Positions 9,308 through 21,732 of a stretch of DNA of 21,732 nt are shown in pieces. Numbering within the stretch: the first letter of the stretch is position 1; each line of letters opens with the position of its first letter. Below the pieces are notes generated by a model, which was not told the origin of the DNA, did no database searches, and saw only the letters and a program-made list of their open reading frames with translations. Both the position numbers and the translations under genes were made by a program. Source of the DNA: a virus. Where the stretch lies: positions 1-21,732 of the IMG/VR virus record IMGVR_UViG_3300036715_002368; one strand, given 5' to 3'.

Positions 9308-10780
9308 ATGAAAGAGTTTTATACATTTGTTGACCAGCAAGGCTCACGATTATTTCATCGCTACTGGGATGGCAGAGAGCGGAAACTCGAAGTTATTGAT
9401 GGATTCCCTATTGAGTTATTTATTGAAGGCAAGCGTAAAGATTCTAAAGGATTGCGCGGCGAAAGTTTGAGTAGAATAGAGTTTAGCGGCATTGATGACG
9501 CGCTGGAATTCATTCGCGAATACAAAGACATTTCCCCTATCCATGGTCAAACGAGTCTTCCGCATCAATTTATTGCGCATCGTTATCCTCGCGAAATCGA
9601 ATTTGATATTAGTAAGTTCGTTATTGCTAACATCGATATCGAAACAAAGTTTGATAATGGATTCCCGTCGCCTGATCGCGCTGACCAGGAAATCACTGCC
9701 ATCACATTGAAGTGTTTCGGAAAAGACAAGTTCGTGAGCTGGGGGACCAAGCCGTATAAGGTTAAAAATGACAGTGACGAGTATGTGTTGTGCGAAAATG
9801 AGAGCGATTTATTGGTCAAATTTGTCAATTACTGGAATCGTCTAAAGCCAGACATCATTACTGGTTGGAACGTTCAGGGGTTTGACGTCCCATATCTCGT
9901 GAATCGAATTACTAATGTTCTAGGGGAGAATGTTGCCGCTAAACTATCTCCTTTCCACCCTTATACGTCTCGCGTCTTCAATGAAATTGAAATCCAAGGC
10001 GAGCAAAAGAGCTATCGCATTCTTGGCATAACAGTATACGATTATTTGGAGCTATACAAGAAATTCAGCCCGAGAAAGCTCGAAAGGTATTCCCTTGATT
10101 TTGTCGCTCACGTTGAGCTCGGTGAACGCAAAATCAATTACTCCGAGTATGGTAACCTTATGGATCTTTATGAGACGAATTACGATTTGTTCATGGACTA
10201 CAACATCCATGACGCTCGTCTCGTTGAGAATATTGACAAGAAATTGAATTTCATGTTCTCTGCTCTAACAATGGCTTATATGGGTCATGTTCGTTTGCAT
10301 GAGATTTTTTCGCAAGTTCGTCTATGGGATACAATGCTCTATAATGAACTGAGGGCTGAAGGCGTTCAAATCCCGCCTCAAGTTCACCGAGGCAATGTTG
10401 ACGGGATTGAAGGCGCATTTGTTAAAGACCCGATTCCTGGTCTTTATAAATGGGTTGTTTCATTTGACTTGACGTCTCTATATCCCTCAATTATCATGCA
10501 GTACAATCTATCTGCTGAAACTGCAGTTGGTCCTGCGGTTGGGAACTTGGTTGACAAAATGGTCAATATGTCTTATGATACGTCCCATTTGAAGGCTGAA
10601 AATCTTACGATGACCGCTAACGGCGCAACATTTACTCGCGATTTCAAAGGCGTCATGCCTCGATTGGTTGAAAAGATGTTTAGTGGACGAAAGAAATATA
10701 AGAATATGATGCTCGAGACGAGAAAAGAGATTGAGAGCATTAAGGCTGAGATGATTAAGCGAGGTATCAAGTATGAATGA
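9308..10780 (+). CDS. 43A: DNA polymerase gp43, N-terminal half (exonuclease and palm motif A)
   Basis: 490 residues from the ATG at 9308; GGAGG at 9299-9303 rules out the TTG at 9305. Family B replicative polymerase. The N-terminal domain and the 3'-5' exonuclease are complete: Exo I with D110 and E112 (NIDIET), Exo II WNVQGFDVPYLVNRI, Exo III YNIHDARL. Polymerase motif A is FDLTSLYPSIIMQYN with D387. The protein then ends (KRGIKYE) in what is the fingers domain of T4/RB69 gp43, before motif B. The remainder is encoded by the next gene, starting in another frame with an 8-base overlap. Both parts together give about 912 aa against 898 in T4. No mobile element or intein lies between them. Confidence 0.95.
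   Translation: MKEFYTFVDQQGSRLFHRYWDGRERKLEVIDGFPIELFIEGKRKDSKGLRGESLSRIEFSGIDDALEFIREYKDISPIHGQTSLPHQFIAHRYPREIEFDISKFVIANIDIETKFDNGFPSPDRADQEITAITLKCFGKDKFVSWGTKPYKVKNDSDEYVLCENESDLLVKFVNYWNRLKPDIITGWNVQGFDVPYLVNRITNVLGENVAAKLSPFHPYTSRVFNEIEIQGEQKSYRILGITVYDYLELYKKFSPRKLERYSLDFVAHVELGERKINYSEYGNLMDLYETNYDLFMDYNIHDARLVENIDKKLNFMFSALTMAYMGHVRLHEIFSQVRLWDTMLYNELRAEGVQIPPQVHRGNVDGIEGAFVKDPIPGLYKWVVSFDLTSLYPSIIMQYNLSAETAVGPAVGNLVDKMVNMSYDTSHLKAENLTMTANGATFTRDFKGVMPRLVEKMFSGRKKYKNMMLETRKEIESIKAEMIKRGIKYE
10551..10579 (+). promoter_or_regulatory. Possible sigma70-type promoter inside gp43A
   Basis: TTGACA at 10551-10556, 17-base spacer, TATGAT at 10574-10579 (11 of 12 consensus bases). It lies about 190 bases before the start of the second polymerase half. 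It may be a chance match in coding sequence, but spacing and match are as good as for the better-placed promoters here. Confidence 0.45.
10761..10765 (+). promoter_or_regulatory. Ribosome-binding site for gp43B
   Basis: GAGGT lies 7 bases before the ATG at 10773 and inside the last codons of gp43A. It shows that the second polymerase half is independently translated, and that the split is a real gene arrangement and not a sequencing frameshift. Confidence 0.75.
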
Positions 10781-13713: not shown

Positions 13714-13748
13714 TAATGTTTAATCCTGCGTTAGGAAAGGAAAAAGAA

Positions 13749-14420
13749 ATGAGTTTTCAAAAAACAAAAATTGATTCGAGTCTCGGCAAACGTGTTAACG
13801 AGTTTCTAAAAGCAAAGGGCGTCCAAACGCCTATGCGCGAAAATGAACTCACAAATCAACAAAAGATTGATATCATCGAGAAAAAGATGGCCGAAGCTTT
13901 GGAAGTGCTGGGCCTTGATTTGACTGATGATAGTCTCGCGGAAACACCTAAGCGAGTTGCGAAAATGTTTGTCAATGAGCTTTACTGGGGTCTCGAGCCA
14001 GAGAATTTCCCAAAGTGCACCACTGTTGAGAATCGAATGGGATATGATGAAATGGTGGTAGAGAAAAACATCACTGTCATGTCAGATTGTGAGCACCACC
14101 TTCGTCCCATTACAGGAGTTGCTCATGTTGCATACATCCCCAAAGGCAAAGTTCTTGGCTTGTCAAAGATGAACAGAATCGTCGAGTACTTTTCTCGCCG
14201 CCCTCAAATTCAAGAGCGTCTCGCGGAACAAATCTATCATGCTCTTGTCTATATTCTTGGCACTGAAGATGTAGCAGTGGTCATTGACGCTGAGCATTTC
14301 TGTGTTAAGCAGCGAGGGGTTGAAGATCATGGTAGCAATACTGTTACGAGCAAGCTAGGCGGAGAATTTAAGAAAGACCCTTCTGTGCGTGCAGAATTCA
14401 TGAGCATCATTCGCTCTTGA
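13749..14420 (+). CDS. folE: GTP cyclohydrolase I (FolE)
   Basis: 223 residues from ATG 13749, close to E. coli FolE (222). AGGAAAGG at 13733-13740 supports this start; an in-frame ATG at 13716 lacks a ribosome site. Converts GTP to dihydroneopterin triphosphate, the first step to folate and to 7-deazaguanines. Zinc ligands are present: C114 and H117 in SDCEHHLRP, and C185 in EHFCVKQRGVED. The C114-C185 distance is the same as C110-C181 in E. coli. TPKRVAKMFVNELYWGL and GLSKMNRIVEYFSRRPQIQERL are also family hallmarks. First gene of a six-gene 7-deazaguanine cluster; queC follows after 7 bases. In this context it feeds DNA modification, not folate. Confidence 0.96.
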   Translation: MSFQKTKIDSSLGKRVNEFLKAKGVQTPMRENELTNQQKIDIIEKKMAEALEVLGLDLTDDSLAETPKRVAKMFVNELYWGLEPENFPKCTTVENRMGYDEMVVEKNITVMSDCEHHLRPITGVAHVAYIPKGKVLGLSKMNRIVEYFSRRPQIQERLAEQIYHALVYILGTEDVAVVIDAEHFCVKQRGVEDHGSNTVTSKLGGEFKKDPSVRAEFMSIIRS

Positions 14421-14427
14421 GGTGATT

Positions 14428-15159
14428 ATGAAAGATGTGTTTTTGAATGAGTTTCCATCCGCGAAAAAAGCGGTTGTGGTGATGAGCGGCGGCATGGATA
14501 GTGCCATTGCCGCCAGACTTTCTGTCGAGAAACTGGGCCCTGAAAATGTTCATGCCTTGAGTTTCTACTATGGGCAGAAGCAGAGCATTGAATTGGACAT
14601 GGCAAAGATCAATGCTGAAAAATTGAAGCTCGCCAAGCATACGTTGGTTGACATTACATTTCTCGGAGATATGGTTCGAGGTGTGAGCGCTAACATTTTG
14701 GGCGGCAAAGATATGCCTACAATTCGAGATATTCTCGGCGACCCTCAGCCTGTTACCTATGTTCCAAATCGAAATGCAATCCTTTTGATGATTGCGTCGA
14801 GCTATGCAGAAGCCAATGACATTGATCTCGTCGTTACAGGTCTGCAAGCGCAGGACGAGTATTCGTACTGGGATACCACGCCGTCTTTTGTGAAAGCCGT
14901 CAATGAAGTTCTGACTCTGAATCGACAAAACAAGATTCGAGTACATGCTCCGTTCATGGGCAAGAACAAATCTCAAGAAATCTCTGCGCTTCTTGAGATG
15001 GATGGCAATATCGATTTGCTGAAAACGACGATCACATGCTATAATCCTAAAGTGGACATCAGCTGCGGAAAATGTCCAAGCTGCGCTGAGCGAATCGCAA
15101 ACTTCAAGAAAGCAGGACTGGTCGACCCGATCAAGTATGCAATTGACATTAAGTGGTGA
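14428..15159 (+). CDS. queC: 7-cyano-7-deazaguanine synthase (QueC)
   Basis: 243 residues from ATG 14428 (a GTG at 14422 is in frame but overlaps the ribosome site GAGGTG, 14419-14424). ATP-dependent enzyme that turns 7-carboxy-7-deazaguanine plus ammonia into preQ0. PP-loop SGGMDS is at 20-25, with YYGQKQSIE and VPNRNAILLMIASSYA typical of QueC. Zinc ligands C204, C213, C216 and C219 are in the final TCYN...CGKCPSCAER block. Its product is the substrate for QueF or for direct insertion by DpdA. The amidotransferase gene follows after 6 bases, which fits an ammonia-supply partnership. Confidence 0.96.
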   Translation: MKDVFLNEFPSAKKAVVVMSGGMDSAIAARLSVEKLGPENVHALSFYYGQKQSIELDMAKINAEKLKLAKHTLVDITFLGDMVRGVSANILGGKDMPTIRDILGDPQPVTYVPNRNAILLMIASSYAEANDIDLVVTGLQAQDEYSYWDTTPSFVKAVNEVLTLNRQNKIRVHAPFMGKNKSQEISALLEMDGNIDLLKTTITCYNPKVDISCGKCPSCAERIANFKKAGLVDPIKYAIDIKW

Positions 15160-15165
15160 TGCATT

Positions 15166-15780
15166 ATGTGTGGAATTTTTTGCAGCTTTGACAGCAAGAA
15201 AGCGAAAGAGCTTCTGACGCTAAATAGTTATAGGGGCTCTCATAGTTATAGCTTCACCGTTGTCGGCGATGAACCGATTCGAGGTTTAGGCGAATTTGAC
15301 GTCTCATTGCTTGATAAAGACGGCTATAAGATCTGCCATGTCCAAGCTCCGACGACAGAGGCGAGGGGATATGATTCAATTCATCCTGCTGAATTCGATG
15401 GCATGCGACTTTGGCATAACGGTATCGTGAAAGACTTCGACGTCAAGCGACTTCAACAAAAGTATGGCGTCGATACTTCTTGGGATACCATGCTGATTCT
15501 CTATGAGCTTTCTTCTGCGAATTGGGAAGAGAATTTGAGCGAAATAAACGGCAGTTTTGCTTGTATTCTTCAAGAAAACGGCATGGTTTATGCTTTCAGA
15601 AATGAGATTTCGCCTCTGTTTTATGACAACGAAATGAATATAAGCAGCGTTATTTTTAACGATTCTCGACCTCTCCCACCTAATCGAATGTTCGTTCTTG
15701 ATCTTGGAAGAAGAAAGATTGAAGATATTGGGTGTAGCTTTAAAACGAAAGAAAATCCTTACTATTTTGGAGATGAATGA
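15166..15780 (+). CDS. Stand-alone class II glutamine amidotransferase (Gat), deazaguanine cluster
   Basis: 204 residues, a complete Ntn-type glutaminase domain and nothing else. Cys2 (MCGIF) is the expected nucleophile after Met removal. RGSHSY at 23-28, NG at 85-86 in LWHNGIVKDF, D107-T108, INGSFACIL and FRNEISPLFYD follow the asparagine-synthase-type N-terminal domain order. It lacks any synthetase domain. Placed directly between queC and queF, it matches the Gat part of the fused Gat-QueC enzymes that make archaeosine-type bases in archaea and some phages. Here the two are separate. It probably delivers ammonia to QueC or converts the 7-substituent to an amidine or amide (inference). The stop overlaps the queF start. 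Confidence 0.85.
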   Translation: MCGIFCSFDSKKAKELLTLNSYRGSHSYSFTVVGDEPIRGLGEFDVSLLDKDGYKICHVQAPTTEARGYDSIHPAEFDGMRLWHNGIVKDFDVKRLQQKYGVDTSWDTMLILYELSSANWEENLSEINGSFACILQENGMVYAFRNEISPLFYDNEMNISSVIFNDSRPLPPNRMFVLDLGRRKIEDIGCSFKTKENPYYFGDE

Positions 15781-16700
15781 TGGAAACTAAAGATATGAAT
15801 GAAATCGCGGCTCGTTCTTTGGGCAGCAGCAACTCTTACGCCGTTTACACCGATAAATTTGATTCCAGTCTTTTGAATCCTTTGCCTAGAGCCTTGGCTC
15901 GTCAAGGCTGGGGAATTACAGGGAAAGAATTCGTCGGCGTGGATGTTTGGCATTGCCACGAAGCAACATTTCTTCTAGACAATGGATGTCCTGTCGCGGG
16001 AACTCTCAAATTTGTTTATGAATCTAACACCGATTTCGTGGTCGAGAGCAAGAGCGCTAAACTCTATCTGAATTCATTTGATATGTGTAAAATGGGCGCA
16101 ACTGTAGAAGAGGCAATTGCTAATTATGAAAAGCAGGTTTCTGTTGATCTTTCTAATACAGTTGATGGTCATGTTGACGTGAAATTCTTCAGTAGTATTG
16201 ATTACGCAAACAGCGAAATCAGTGTCCCTTTTGGCATATACTATGATGATTTGTTCAAATTGATTGGCGTCGAAAATATTGAAAAAATGGTTTTCGATGA
16301 TTATCATGCGAAAGAAAATCATATTAGTGTGAACGATGGCGAGCAAATGCTTAAAGTGTTCACAAATGTTTTGCGCTCGCGCTGCCGCCATACGAAGCAA
16401 AAAGATACTGGGACGGCATTCATCTATCGTAAAAGCGATCACACGGCTATCGACCCCTCTAGCTTGCTTCGTCAAATTGTGAGCTTGCGAGAAGTGAATG
16501 AATTCCACGAATTCTGCGCAGAGAAAATTTTCGTTGACATTTTGAATAAATCTCGCGAAAATGATGAAATCATGGTGGCTCTGATGTATTCTCGCCGAGG
16601 CAGTCTGGACATCAATCCTATTCGAGCAACTAGCTTTGATTTGATTCCGCCTGAGCTCTATATTGCGAATCGTCTGACTGAAAAAACGCAAGGTCAGTAA
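15777..16700 (+). CDS. queF: preQ0 reductase QueF, bimodular (E. coli type)
   Basis: 307 residues (E. coli QueF: 282). NADPH-dependent reduction of the nitrile of preQ0 to the aminomethyl of preQ1. The N-terminal half has the NADPH motif ESKSAKLY at 90-97 in the QueF context KLYLNSF. The C-terminal half has C203 (thioimide nucleophile) and D210, seven apart as C190/D197 in E. coli, then H244-E245 in NEFHEFCAEKIF, and RRGSLDINPIRA. All catalytic residues and the NADPH motif are intact, so this reads as a true reductase, not the QueF-L amidinotransferase. Between the halves about 100 residues are divergent. ATG 15777 overlaps the upstream stop; ATG 15780 has better spacing from GGAG (15769-15772). 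Confidence 0.92.
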   Translation: MMETKDMNEIAARSLGSSNSYAVYTDKFDSSLLNPLPRALARQGWGITGKEFVGVDVWHCHEATFLLDNGCPVAGTLKFVYESNTDFVVESKSAKLYLNSFDMCKMGATVEEAIANYEKQVSVDLSNTVDGHVDVKFFSSIDYANSEISVPFGIYYDDLFKLIGVENIEKMVFDDYHAKENHISVNDGEQMLKVFTNVLRSRCRHTKQKDTGTAFIYRKSDHTAIDPSSLLRQIVSLREVNEFHEFCAEKIFVDILNKSRENDEIMVALMYSRRGSLDINPIRATSFDLIPPELYIANRLTEKTQGQ

Positions 16701-16718
16701 TAAAAGCCGAGGAAATAC

Positions 16719-18029
16719 ATGGAATTTCGTTACGTTTTTAGTGCGCCAGCAATGCTTCGTTTGATGCCTAGTAGTTGGGAAAAAGAAAATCCCGATGAAC
16801 ACGCAAAAAGCGCTTGCATGGTTAAAGAGGGCATGCAGCGTCTAAGGAAAGACGCTGCAGATAGAATCCCTGAAATGAAATTTGGCATCGATATTCTTTT
16901 CAATGCTTACACTGAAAAAGAGACTGGCGCATGGCTTAGGAAGCATGACACTTTCGGCTTTGAAAAGCTATACGCCGACTCTGGTGGATTGCAAATTGTT
17001 ACTGCTGGGAAGAAAGTCGACGATGCGTTGAAATCTGAAATTTATTCGATTCAGAGTAATGCGGATTTTGCCATGTGTTTTGACGAAATTCCTGCTAGCA
17101 CTGTTGGTGTTGCTGATTCTAAGAGCAATCGATCGCAGACTGGAAATAAGCTATATCATCCCACACGCAAAAAAGAAACTGCAATAAAAACCGCTAATAA
17201 TATTCGTGAGCAAATTGAAATTCTAGATAAACTGGGAACTAACACAAAAGTTCATTACATTATTCAAGGCAATACTCACCAAGATATGTATGAGTGGTTC
17301 GACGATGGCTCGAAAATCTTAACTGATTCGCATTTTGGAAAGGTTGGCGGCGTTGCTTTGGCTGATACGTGTATGGGCAACGGTCCTATGGAATCTATTG
17401 ATATGCTTGTCGCATACCACAGAATCCATAAAGAATTTGGATATGAAAAAGTCAAAAATCATGTTCACTTGCTGGGGCTAGGGAGCGTAAGACGATTGTT
17501 GCCCGCCATCTATTTGATGAATAGCGAATTTTTGCCTAAGGATTTGACGATTAGTTTCGATAGCACCACATTTAGCATGAGCTATTTCATGGGTCGTTTT
17601 ATTGATAGCAATGGGAATAAAATTCAAGGCGACCCCAGAGAGATTCGTCGCATGTTTCATATGGTATATCAATATTTTGGGGACATCTATCGAAAATATG
17701 TCCCTGATCTCGATGAAGATCATTTCATCGATCATGTTTCAAGTGAAATTAGAAGTGTTGCTGACACTCTCAATAATGCTCGTTCTGACATTCGAGCTCT
17801 TGTTAGAGCAAACATTACACTCACCAATTGCTGGCAAATTCTTGGATTTATTGAGCAAGTGAAGAAAATCATTGAAATTTCGAAGCATGACAATACACCT
17901 CTAGGTATGTTGAAATATGTGAAAGATTTCGATGATTATTTGCATTGGCATAGAGAATTCAGTCATTTCGTCCCCAGCAAAAGAATTAATCGCGAAAGCG
18001 GCGCCTGCCTTGACAATTTCTTTGTTTGA
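16719..18029 (+). CDS. dpdA: DpdA, DNA 7-deazaguanine transglycosylase (TGT family)
   Basis: 436 residues. Swaps guanine in DNA for a free 7-deazaguanine base. It has TGT-fold signatures: D87 in YADSGGLQ (tRNA-guanine transglycosylase DSGGFQ), CFDEIP, YIIQGNTH, KVGGVALADTCMG, HLLGLGSVRRLLPAI, and the likely nucleophile D281 in ISFDSTTFS. The CxCxxC zinc site of tRNA-type TGTs is not visible, consistent with the phage DNA-acting branch. The last nine residues (GACLDNFFV) contain L-x-x-F-F, like the clamp-binding tails of gp43B. GAGGA at 16709-16713 is the ribosome site. The queE promoter overlaps the stop codon region. A tRNA-acting TGT is the alternative but does not fit the lost zinc site and cluster. 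Confidence 0.92.
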   Translation: MEFRYVFSAPAMLRLMPSSWEKENPDEHAKSACMVKEGMQRLRKDAADRIPEMKFGIDILFNAYTEKETGAWLRKHDTFGFEKLYADSGGLQIVTAGKKVDDALKSEIYSIQSNADFAMCFDEIPASTVGVADSKSNRSQTGNKLYHPTRKKETAIKTANNIREQIEILDKLGTNTKVHYIIQGNTHQDMYEWFDDGSKILTDSHFGKVGGVALADTCMGNGPMESIDMLVAYHRIHKEFGYEKVKNHVHLLGLGSVRRLLPAIYLMNSEFLPKDLTISFDSTTFSMSYFMGRFIDSNGNKIQGDPREIRRMFHMVYQYFGDIYRKYVPDLDEDHFIDHVSSEIRSVADTLNNARSDIRALVRANITLTNCWQILGFIEQVKKIIEISKHDNTPLGMLKYVKDFDDYLHWHREFSHFVPSKRINRESGACLDNFFV

Positions 18030-18038
18030 TGCTAAAAT
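18010..18038 (+). promoter_or_regulatory. Sigma70-type promoter with extended -10, ahead of queE
   Basis: TTGACA at 18010-18015, 17-base spacer, TAAAAT at 18033-18038 preceded by TGC (11 of 12 consensus bases plus extended -10). The dpdA stop (18027-18029) is in the spacer. Start point near 18045, about 23 bases before the queE ATG. Likely serves queE and gp41. Confidence 0.75.
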
Positions 18039-18067
18039 TTTTAGTTCATTTATAGGGGATAGTATTC

Positions 18068-18961
18068 ATGAAAATCAGAACGAGTGAGGTATTTGCAAGT
18101 TTTCAAGGAGAAGGGCTGCATGCTGGTGTTCCAAGTCTGTGGATTCGTTTCTTCGGATGCAATCTAGAGTGCAATGGATTCGGACAGAAAGACCCTTGTA
18201 ATCCAGAAACGTATGTTCTGCCATATAAAACTATCGATATCAGTGATATAAAGCGAATGGAAGACTTGCCCGTTTTCCAATACGGTTGTGACTCTAGCTA
18301 CAGTTGGAGTGCCAAGTATAAGCATTTAGCTAAGGATTGGAGCGTGGTCAATTTGATTGATGAATTGCATAGACTTGGTGCAGAAAGATTTGGGATGGTT
18401 GATGGATGGTTTAATCATCGAACAAAACAGCCAATTCAACTCTGTTTCACTGGCGGCGAGCCTATGATGCATCAAAAAGCCATTGTAGCAATTCTTAATG
18501 AAATCCAAGAACAATATGGCGATTTTGGTCCTGATTTAGTGACCATTGAGACGAATGCGACGCGTCATCTCACCGATGAACTTAAGGAACGACTCGAATG
18601 CAGAGACTTCAAAATTAATTTCGCCTGCTCACCCAAGCTATTTTCTGTCAGCGGCGAAAAGGGCGCCGTTAACTTGGACGTCATTGAAGAATATATGAGC
18701 ATATCGCATTCTGGTATTCTGAAGTTTGTGGTGAATGGAGCTGAAGAATGCTGGGATGAAATTGACGGGTACATGGACGAGCTTGTCGATCTTCTCGCTC
18801 AGAATCCGAATTGGAGTTTGTGGGCAATGCCTGTAGGGGCTACAAAAGAACAACAAGAGTCGCCTACTGTTGCTGAAATCGCAAATGAGGCAATGCGTCG
18901 CGGATTTAATATCGCGACTCGAAATCACACTTATGTTTATGGCAATGTGGTGGGTAGCTAA
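18068..18961 (+). CDS. queE: 7-carboxy-7-deazaguanine synthase (QueE), radical SAM, with cluster-loop insertion
   Basis: 297 residues, longer than the usual 210-250. Radical SAM enzyme that contracts carboxytetrahydropterin to 7-carboxy-7-deazaguanine. N-terminus SEVFASFQGEGLHAGVPSLWIRFFGCNLEC is typical. Iron-sulfur ligands are C31 and C35 (CNLEC). The third is best assigned to C74 in YGCDSSYSW, which corresponds to the usual CDTxYxW, leaving 38 residues between the second and third cysteines instead of two. C44 (KDPCN) is an alternative. The SAM-binding TGGEP is at 128-132. AGGGGA at 18054-18059 supports the start. It has its own promoter and is separated from queC by three genes. It ends TAATG, overlapping gp41 by one base. 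Confidence 0.92.
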   Translation: MKIRTSEVFASFQGEGLHAGVPSLWIRFFGCNLECNGFGQKDPCNPETYVLPYKTIDISDIKRMEDLPVFQYGCDSSYSWSAKYKHLAKDWSVVNLIDELHRLGAERFGMVDGWFNHRTKQPIQLCFTGGEPMMHQKAIVAILNEIQEQYGDFGPDLVTIETNATRHLTDELKERLECRDFKINFACSPKLFSVSGEKGAVNLDVIEEYMSISHSGILKFVVNGAEECWDEIDGYMDELVDLLAQNPNWSLWAMPVGATKEQQESPTVAEIANEAMRRGFNIATRNHTYVYGNVVGS

Positions 18962-20377: not shown

Positions 20378-21484
20378 ATGCTAACATTTGAACAGTTTCT
20401 GCTTCTTGAGGGCGGCAATGTGGTAATTGACGATCACGAGGCAGAAAGAATTGATTTAAGAAAAATTAATAGAACAGAAATCGTTAAAGATTTAACTGTT
20501 GGCCTGGATGCAATAAATCGTGCATTTGAAAAGAAGCATGGGTTGCCGCTTTGGAATGACGATCTTTTCAAATCAAAAGAATTTTTGAGCGGCAGTGCAT
20601 TCCATTTTTTCGATTTGAAAAATATTGACGACGAAAAATTTAAGAAGGTTAAGCCTTCTGTTGGAGATATTGATACGCAGGTTGACGGCAATTTTGACTC
20701 GCGCATTGTCGAATTCTTGAATTCGATTAAAGGCAAGAGTTTCGGGCCATTGACTTTTATCGGATATAAAACGAGCGCTGGTCAGCATATAACGTTATGG
20801 CGCCTGGATAAATTTGACATGAACATTCAGATTGACATGGAAATGGTTGAATTTGGCTCCGATGGTAAGCCGACTCCTTGGGCTCAATTCAGCCATTCGA
20901 GCTCATGGAAAGACCTTCAGCAAGGCTTGAAAGGCGTGGCGCATAAGTATCTCATGCAGGCAATAAATGCTCGCAATTTGCTTGACATGGTCATAAAAGC
21001 CAAAACGCCGAAAGGTAAGGACAAGGTGACAAGGAGCACTCCTTTGACTTTTTCGGTCACGAATGGGCTTCGCAATCGTCTTGAGCCAGTGCGTGATGAT
21101 AAAGGCAATCATGAAAAAGTCAATGGATTGCCTGCTTATCGCGAGCTCAGTACATCTGAAAGTCAAGGCAGCACGGACTTGAATTATATTTTTAGCGCTT
21201 ATTTTGGTAAAGAGCCCACTAAAAAAGACATCGAAGACATGGGTAGCTTCGTCGGTCTTCTTGAGTTGATTAAGAAGCATTTCAGCAAAGAAGAGCAAAA
21301 AATGGTCGTTGATGGGTTCATGAATAAATTGTGGGGCCCAGGTGCGCAAGGATTATATCGCGGCGATAAGGAACGCGACTTTGACGAAAAAATGGTCATG
21401 GCAAGGCAACTTTTGAATGCTCTTGGCGGGTCTATTGACAATTATTTCGATATGATTGAAACTTACTATAAGACGTATAAATGA
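20378..21484 (+). CDS. Pol-beta-type nucleotidyltransferase with capsid-targeting-like N-terminus
   Basis: 368 residues, no family name recognised. The N-terminus MLTFEQFLLLEGG resembles the capsid-targeting peptide of T4 internal head proteins (MKTYQEFIAE), with an L-L-E cleavage-like site at 9-11 for a gp21-type protease. The catalytic pattern of Pol-beta nucleotidyltransferases follows: G72-S73 in LSGSAFHFFD, D97-I-D99 in VGDIDTQVD, and the third acid D153 in NIQIDMEMVEF. The rest (about 170-368) is charged and unassigned; GLRNRLEPVRDDKG and LWGPGAQGLYRGDKERDFDEK look like conserved patches. Ribosome site is weak (GAGAA, 20368-20372). The gene overlaps the next one, and the pair probably work together. 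Function could be RNA or nucleotide modification. Confidence 0.75.
   Translation: MLTFEQFLLLEGGNVVIDDHEAERIDLRKINRTEIVKDLTVGLDAINRAFEKKHGLPLWNDDLFKSKEFLSGSAFHFFDLKNIDDEKFKKVKPSVGDIDTQVDGNFDSRIVEFLNSIKGKSFGPLTFIGYKTSAGQHITLWRLDKFDMNIQIDMEMVEFGSDGKPTPWAQFSHSSSWKDLQQGLKGVAHKYLMQAINARNLLDMVIKAKTPKGKDKVTRSTPLTFSVTNGLRNRLEPVRDDKGNHEKVNGLPAYRELSTSESQGSTDLNYIFSAYFGKEPTKKDIEDMGSFVGLLELIKKHFSKEEQKMVVDGFMNKLWGPGAQGLYRGDKERDFDEKMVMARQLLNALGGSIDNYFDMIETYYKTYK
20709..20726. repeat. Short inverted repeat in nucleotidyltransferase gene
   Basis: TCGAATTC, 2-base spacer TT, GAATTCGA. Arms of 8 match perfectly. In coding sequence for VEFLNSI; probably a by-product of codon choice, listed only for completeness. 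Confidence 0.3.
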
Positions 21485-21732
21485 TGCTAAGTTTCAAGGA
21501 ATTCATTCGCGAGAATGTTGCAACCACAACCCGTCAAGGCATCACGCATCTTCAGGATATGAAGCCTGAAGAATTTGTTGCGTGGGTTAAAAGTGTAAAA
21601 GCTGCTGGCGGCATTCTTTCGAACTATAAAACAGTTATGAAGATAGACGGCCTAGGCGCTCGCTTTGGTCGCGATCTCAATGGAAAAATATTCTTCGAGG
21701 GCAGCCGAACGGGGCCAGTTTTTGACAGCGGG
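21481..21732 (+). CDS. Rnl2-like ligase/nucleotidyltransferase with capsid-targeting-like N-terminus (3' end missing)
   Basis: 84 residues visible, running off the window. The N-terminus (from the second Met at 21484) MLSFKEFIREN aligns position by position with the T4 internal-protein targeting peptide MKTYQEFIAEA, and I-R-E fits the gp21 cleavage consensus (I/L-x-E). A helical linker follows (DMKPEEFVAWVKSVKAAGG). Then comes a candidate ligase motif I, K54-I-D-G57 (MKIDGLGARFGRD), and about 16 residues later GSRTGPVF. This parallels KIHG followed by KRTGPI in T4 RNA ligase 2. Lys54 would carry the AMP. Coupled to the nucleotidyltransferase gene by overlap (ATGATG / TGA), with no clear ribosome site. 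A DNA ligase or other KxDG enzyme remains possible because the later motifs are outside the window. Confidence 0.7.
   Translation, partial: MMLSFKEFIRENVATTTRQGITHLQDMKPEEFVAWVKSVKAAGGILSNYKTVMKIDGLGARFGRDLNGKIFFEGSRTGPVFDSG

Follow-up and report, generated by a model that had tools for sequence, protein, structure and literature searches.

Two overlapping genes at the right end of a 21.7-kb IMG/VR contig from a T4-like phage (the window, that is, the whole stretch of 21,732 nucleotides analysed) encode a nucleotidyltransferase (NTase) of the Pol-beta type and an enzyme with the RNA-ligase fold. Both enzymes begin with a predicted T4-like head-packing tag, which makes it probable that a ready-made repair kit is injected with the phage DNA. 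On balance, we read the pair as a packaged, protease-processed and injected module for the repair of nucleic-acid ends, with RNA as its most likely substrate. RNA-repair NTase-ligase pairs and the T4 internal head proteins are both already known; within the open-access literature, we found no paper on packaged RNA-repair enzymes with a capsid-targeting leader.

Gene layout and closest relative

Reading of the ORFs of the window identified UvsW, gp46/47, the clamp, the loader, DNA polymerase, UvsX, 7-deazaguanine genes and gp41; the contig does not span the head genes. The initial annotation had placed two overlapping genes at 20378-21732, and both ORFs are present: the NTase gene is complete (20378-21484, 368 aa), and the ligase gene starts at 21481 and is truncated by the contig end after 84 aa, the two sharing the four bases ATGA (21481-21484). 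The closest relative, a 126-kb contig (L002/G001), carries both genes complete and is, over the shared parts, 78% identical to the window in the NTase and 88% in the ligase. Since the ligase gene of the window runs off the contig end, motifs III-V were read in the full-length ligase of L002 (11104-12000, 298 aa). Features of the window are as follows.

20378 to 20410, + strand: NTase leader MLTFEQFLLLE, predicted capsid-targeting, with a gp21-type cut L-L-E/G (pLDDT below 50; leaderless homologs start M/GGN at the same boundary)
20411 to 21484, + strand: Pol-beta/PolX-like NTase, predicted mature part from Gly-Gly-Asn (phrog_19290; invariant G72-S73, D97, D99 and D153; AF2)
20666 to 20674, + strand: codons of the NTase catalytic D97-x-D99 (invariant in 19/19)
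20834 to 20836, + strand: third catalytic Asp of the NTase, D153 (invariant in 19/19)
21481 to 21513, + strand: ligase leader MMLSFKEFIRE, predicted gp21-type cut I-R-E/N ([LIV]xE end in nearly all stand-alone relatives; equivalent interdomain site in fusions)
21514 to 21732, + strand: RNA-ligase-fold enzyme, 5' part only (88% identity to L002; AF2 of the L002 protein; Foldseek)
21640 to 21651, + strand: ligase motif I K-I-D-G with the nucleotidylation lysine (K and D in 22/22, G in 21/22 of the alignment)

Directly upstream of gp41 and the pair, the window holds a 7-deazaguanine DNA-modification set (13716-18961) of FolE-, QueC-, amidotransferase-, DpdA/transglycosylase- and QueE-like genes. 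G001 encodes 14 tRNAs and a tmRNA; the latter (L055:5478-5802) is permuted and of the betaproteobacterial type (RF01850, 128 bits; RF04321), which hints at a betaproteobacterial host.

The two enzymes

Scans of the NTase and the ligase with Pfam, PHROGs and NCBIfam returned no functional name, and sequence profiles against PDB chains found nothing for the two proteins. The NTase matched PHROG 19290 (unknown function, E 5e-37) and no Pfam or NCBIfam model. Its residues G72-S73, D97-x-D99 and D153 are invariant across all 19 aligned sequences. Its AF2 model has a mean pLDDT of 92.2, with values below 50 confined to the leader (residues 1-11). Using Foldseek, we obtained Pol beta (2van), Pol mu and AsfvPolX as the best enzyme matches to this model in the PDB, with probabilities of up to 0.97. 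The match to Pol beta (probability 0.97) has an E value of 0.017 and no NTase match lies below 0.001, and thus the protein is a divergent member of the Pol-beta superfamily. These motifs and the predicted Pol beta/X fold bear out its first description as a Pol-beta-type NTase with GS, DID and a third Asp. RlaP (PF10127) was tried as the family of the NTase and rejected, the profile matching none of five phage records at E<=10 while hitting four control genomes. A scan with one short pattern, which reaches close relatives only, found no relative in about 85,000 species genomes of bacteria and archaea.

The ligase had been described as an Rnl2-like KxDG enzyme, to be read further for motifs III, IIIa, IV and V. 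Its K-x-D, R, E-x-S-R, motif III Glu, F-V, motif IV E-G and motif V Lys are invariant in all 22 relatives, and the Gly of motif I K-x-D-G is kept in 21 of them. Motif V reads K-x-T in 22/22 and not K-x-K, the second Lys being absent; on this ground the window-type ligase is assigned to neither the Rnl1 nor the Rnl2 family. The AF2 model of the L002 ligase (mean pLDDT 92.1) was matched by T4 Rnl1, T4 Rnl2 and Naegleria and archaeal RNA ligases at ranks 1-13, with probabilities of 0.99-1.00 (T4 Rnl1, E 2e-4, probability 1.0; T4 Rnl2, E 2.4e-4); DNA ligases also match, at lower rank. The ligase class thus agrees with both motifs and fold, with T4 Rnl1 and Rnl2 as top PDB matches, and structure prediction yields a Pol-beta-type and a ligase fold for the pair, each at a mean pLDDT of 92. 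Pfam RNA_ligase (PF09414) gave no match for the window-type ligase and a weak one (E 0.003) for the Campylobacter-type partner.

Pairing and the third enzyme

We found the NTase adjacent, nearby or fused at 45 of 45 usable metagenomic ligase loci, out of 47 in total, those with enough sequence being counted. The NTase also occurs in 38 GenBank phage records (16 Stenotrophomonas, 15 Campylobacter, 6 Vibrio and 1 Xanthomonas), and a ligase partner is present in the same groups at the same counts. These partners are of three types: the window type in Xanthomonas phage X1, a diverged type in the 16 Stenotrophomonas phages and, in all 21 phages of Campylobacter and Vibrio, a ligase fused to an adenylyltransferase. 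In Campylobacter phage CP220 the NTase and ligase genes lie about 66 kb apart, the ligase gene near the portal gene, and thus the pairing is not merely a matter of neighbourhood. Treating the fusion-type and window-type ligases as one family found no support (hhalign probability 5%), and they are not detectably related beyond the superfamily; their pairing with one NTase family is therefore read as replacement. For the NTases of L020, L021, L024, L031 and L034, no ligase of these types was found in the flanks examined.

The initial annotation had proposed a unit of two enzymes. The pairing stands, with near-perfect co-occurrence in relatives (45/45 usable loci, 38/38 GenBank records), but the unit is usually a trio, as an HxGH enzyme nearest to NMN adenylyltransferases (NCBIfam E 4e-7) is adjacent or fused in most loci. 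At some loci, e.g. L084, L087 and L088, its profile did not find it in the sequence. One lineage carries a P-loop kinase of the AAA_33/zeta type with the leader MSFIGLLTE (L033:7203-7724) between the NTase and the ligase-adenylyltransferase fusion, possibly an end-healing kinase.

Leaders and the predicted processing boundary

The cleavage rule of T4 is known in the form [LI]-x-E. T4-type prohead proteases cleave after Glu (PMC5694885), and in T4 an N-terminal targeting peptide of about 10 residues is removed by gp21 (PMC9958956). The leaders of the window end in the same manner (NTase, MLTFEQFLLLE/GGN; ligase, MMLSFKEFIRE/NVA), as does that of the CP220 NTase (MKLSELMFILE/GGN), and the [LIV]-x-Glu boundary is, judged from sequence, the cleavage rule of the T4 prohead protease gp21.

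Among 41 non-redundant NTase copies (<=90% identical), the boundary reads [LIV]xE/GGN in 32, M/GGN in eight and LLC/GGN in one, the M-GGN start being that of the NTases of Xanthomonas phage X1, Vibrio phage Va1 and Stenotrophomonas phage Mendera. On the NTase tree the leader state changes about six times in the most parsimonious reconstruction; at least four of these changes are required by supported branches, and in none does the boundary shift. Leader sequences vary widely while the boundary stays fixed, and all 31 stand-alone NTase leaders end in [LIV]xE, whereas after shuffling 1.7 leaders do so on average and 8 at most. That the E before GGN is a mere conserved residue of the protein was judged unlikely, since leaderless copies place their start Met there. 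Stand-alone ligases almost always have a leader of this kind; there is none in L016, and X1 is ambiguous (MLVAE).

Furthermore, Peptidase_S77, the gp21 family, was identified in 12 of 13 large records including G001, the thirteenth being a 107-kb fragment. NTase-ligase fusions (L084-L086) and NTase-ligase-adenylyltransferase fusions (L019, L091-L102) have an [LIV]xE site just before the ligase domain (LDE, VTE, INE, LAE or IFE). In G001 the leader pattern occurs in four of 156 ORFs, with 0.48 expected from shuffled N-termini, and thus exceeds chance; the four encode the NTase, the ligase, a 1327-aa ART/PARP-like protein and a 494-aa AAA protein. The boundary fixed through at least four tree changes, the sites in fusions and gp21 in the same genomes together support the earlier proposal that the leader common to both enzymes targets them to the capsid in the T4 manner and is then cleaved.

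Several individual loci deviate. The sole exceptions to the E/GGN rule are L077, L078 and L081, which read GYGQPQLLLC/GGN after a longer N-terminal stretch; at the boundary, LLE and LFE stand in L079 and L080, which are closely related to them. In L024 (4660-7206) the NTase frame extends about 447 residues upstream with INE directly before GGN, possibly a further polyprotein. The NTase of L025 (5998-7209) starts M-GGN and has the C-terminus RILE/MSFLEFLEERGF; here a C-terminal targeting tail may replace the leader. The leader of the L025 ligase is long and contains LNE and ITE sites.

Lineages without leaders

The initial annotation had both enzymes targeted to the head. In the lineage of the window both leaders are present, but this is not a general trait: both are absent in Va1 and Mendera, a leaderless pair also occurs in L029, the X1 pair probably lacks leaders as well, and in the Campylobacter phages (e.g. 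CP220) and L016 the leader is on the NTase only. Since some Vibrio, Stenotrophomonas and probably Xanthomonas phages lack leaders, head targeting seems to be a lineage-specific elaboration that was gained or lost around a constant repair pair, and the enzymes would also work unpackaged or targeted otherwise. In the accessible part of the report on a CP220 virion gel, where only major bands were cut, the protein is not among the 11 identified bands (PMC2853527).

Proposed function and alternatives

In the mechanism that we propose, the Pol-beta-type NTase would add or replace nucleotides at a broken end and the RNA-ligase-type enzyme would seal it, the module usually being completed by the NMN-adenylyltransferase-like enzyme encoded next door or fused. 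The NTase and the ligase would be synthesised late, as precursors bearing a targeting peptide at the N-terminus, and would enter the prohead core, where gp21 would cut after [LIV]-x-Glu, freeing both and leaving Gly-Gly-Asn as the new NTase N-terminus. The processed enzymes would be ejected with the phage DNA and would repair ends before phage gene expression, the likeliest being RNA ends, e.g. of tRNA cleaved by host anticodon nucleases. Packaging and cleavage of the pair are highly probable in our estimate, and nucleic-acid end repair is its probable function. If repair is the function, RNA is somewhat better placed than DNA as the substrate, and use against host defence is a tentative proposal. 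Several observations tilt the balance towards RNA: the nearest matches of the ligase are RNA ligases, a DNA ligase is encoded separately in relatives (CP220, G001), a P-loop kinase accompanies the set in one lineage (L033), and G001 has 14 tRNAs and a tmRNA. The G001 DNA ligase is an ORF with a PF09414 match (10115-10609), of the replication type by our reading of the ORF. It might also be that the whole trio is injected pre-made, in some lineages as a polyprotein cut inside the head, undoing host RNA damage before phage transcription, with Gly-Gly-Asn release perhaps switching the NTase on. The third enzyme of such a kit could conceivably be the one that supplies nucleotides.

DNA could instead be the substrate of the packaged enzymes, which would then repair nicks or gaps of the incoming phage DNA by filling and sealing them, or help to circularise or protect its ends. 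DNA polymerases (beta, mu and AsfvPolX) are the best enzyme fold matches of the NTase, DNA ligases match the ligase model too, more weakly, and a location in the head puts the enzymes on packaged DNA. However, the 13 best ligase matches are all RNA ligases, neither an AP endonuclease nor a DNA-binding domain was found with the pair, and several relatives (G001, CP220) already have a replication-type DNA ligase; we consider DNA repair unlikely, although it is the strongest of the alternatives. A cytoplasmic pair made during infection, its leader a translational or evolutionary relic without a targeting role, would fit the leaderless pairs of Va1, Mendera and L029 and the position of the genes, which lie between replication and baseplate genes and not in a head operon. 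We regard it as improbable, as the [LIV]xE/GGN boundary stays exact through repeated gain and loss, cleavage-type sites are found inside fusions, the leader is limited to four of 156 ORFs, one of them ART-like, and it is unstructured in the AF2 model.

Moreover, the trio might be injected to make or transfer a nucleotide group for another purpose, such as the nucleotidylation of host proteins or chemistry related to NAD. The third enzyme, nearest to NMN adenylyltransferase (NCBIfam E 4e-7), is indeed fused in several lineages, and myoviruses commonly package NAD/ADP-ribose enzymes (PMC9503650). However, a ligase whose RNA-ligase motifs are intact is always part of the set, and L033 adds an AAA_33/zeta-type P-loop kinase in the way that end-healing kinases accompany RNA ligases, which makes this purpose very improbable.

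The phage RNA repair enzymes known so far are thought to be made after infection has started, which leaves a gap for host anticodon nucleases. If our reading of the pair as an injected end-repair module is true, a packaged repair set would close this gap, and the known injected cargo of phages, so far inhibitors and ADP-ribosyltransferases, would come to include repair enzymes. The pattern of leader and site is of general use for predicting head-packaged effectors of T4-like phages, and the exact boundary together with the polyprotein versions makes the packaging idea directly testable.

Comparison with known systems

RlaP is an NTase of the Pol-beta superfamily that is found with RNA ligases and proposed to restore lost nucleotides before ligation, according to the accessible part of a 2021 report (PMC7824862). 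The NTase studied here is likewise associated genomically with a ligase (45/45 loci, 38/38 records), but it has no PF10127 match and its partner lies outside Pfam RNA_ligase. In the accessible part of the same report, a leader, processing sites, fusions and an adenylyltransferase partner as seen in the present system are not described for RlaP (PMC7824862). Since the NTase fails the RlaP profile, we see it as working like RlaP and do not assign it as a member of that family. With T4 Pnkp/Rnl1 and Rnl2 the pair shares the ligase fold and motifs, and Rnl1 and Rnl2 are the top PDB matches of its ligase; identity, however, is about 13%, motif V reads K-x-T, and the ligase has a dedicated NTase partner with a targeting leader. 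The Pol X and DNA ligase of African swine fever virus similarly combine a compact Pol X-type polymerase with a ligase, and AsfvPolX and AsfvLIG are among the fold matches, whereas the present ligase is closer to RNA ligases, there is no AP endonuclease and no sequence relationship was detected.

The T4 internal head proteins (IPI-IPIII, Alt) have a leader of about 10 residues cleaved by the prohead protease (PMC9958956, PMC5694885), to which the predicted removable leaders of the present proteins correspond. The pair matches them in every sequence feature tested (a leader ending [LI]-x-E and a gp21-type protease in the genome), but its cargo is a polymerise-and-seal set, sometimes made as one polyprotein. 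T4 Alt is a packaged ADP-ribosyltransferase that gp21 cuts at both ends (PMC5694885), and the leader-bearing ART-like protein of G001 resembles it. This 1327-aa protein (L054:9295-13278; G001 109295-113278), a candidate packaged ADP-ribosyltransferase, starts with the leader MRFEDFIKHLQE, matches PF00644 weakly (E 5e-5) and has a second leader-like stretch, RILSFKEFLRE/AMTPG, at residue 1228. The 494-aa AAA protein of G001 (L054:15168-16652; G001 115168-116652; PHROG 1250) has the leader MFSFKKWLTE; its PHROG 1250 relatives include nrdC.10-annotated genes of Aeromonas phages, and its homolog in phage X1 adjoins the NTase and has no leader. In addition, the adenylyltransferase of the closest relative (L002:11997-12914) contains an internal leader-like KSFEEWLAE and, after it, a long tail rich in Asp and Glu, which might be a cleavable targeting tail.
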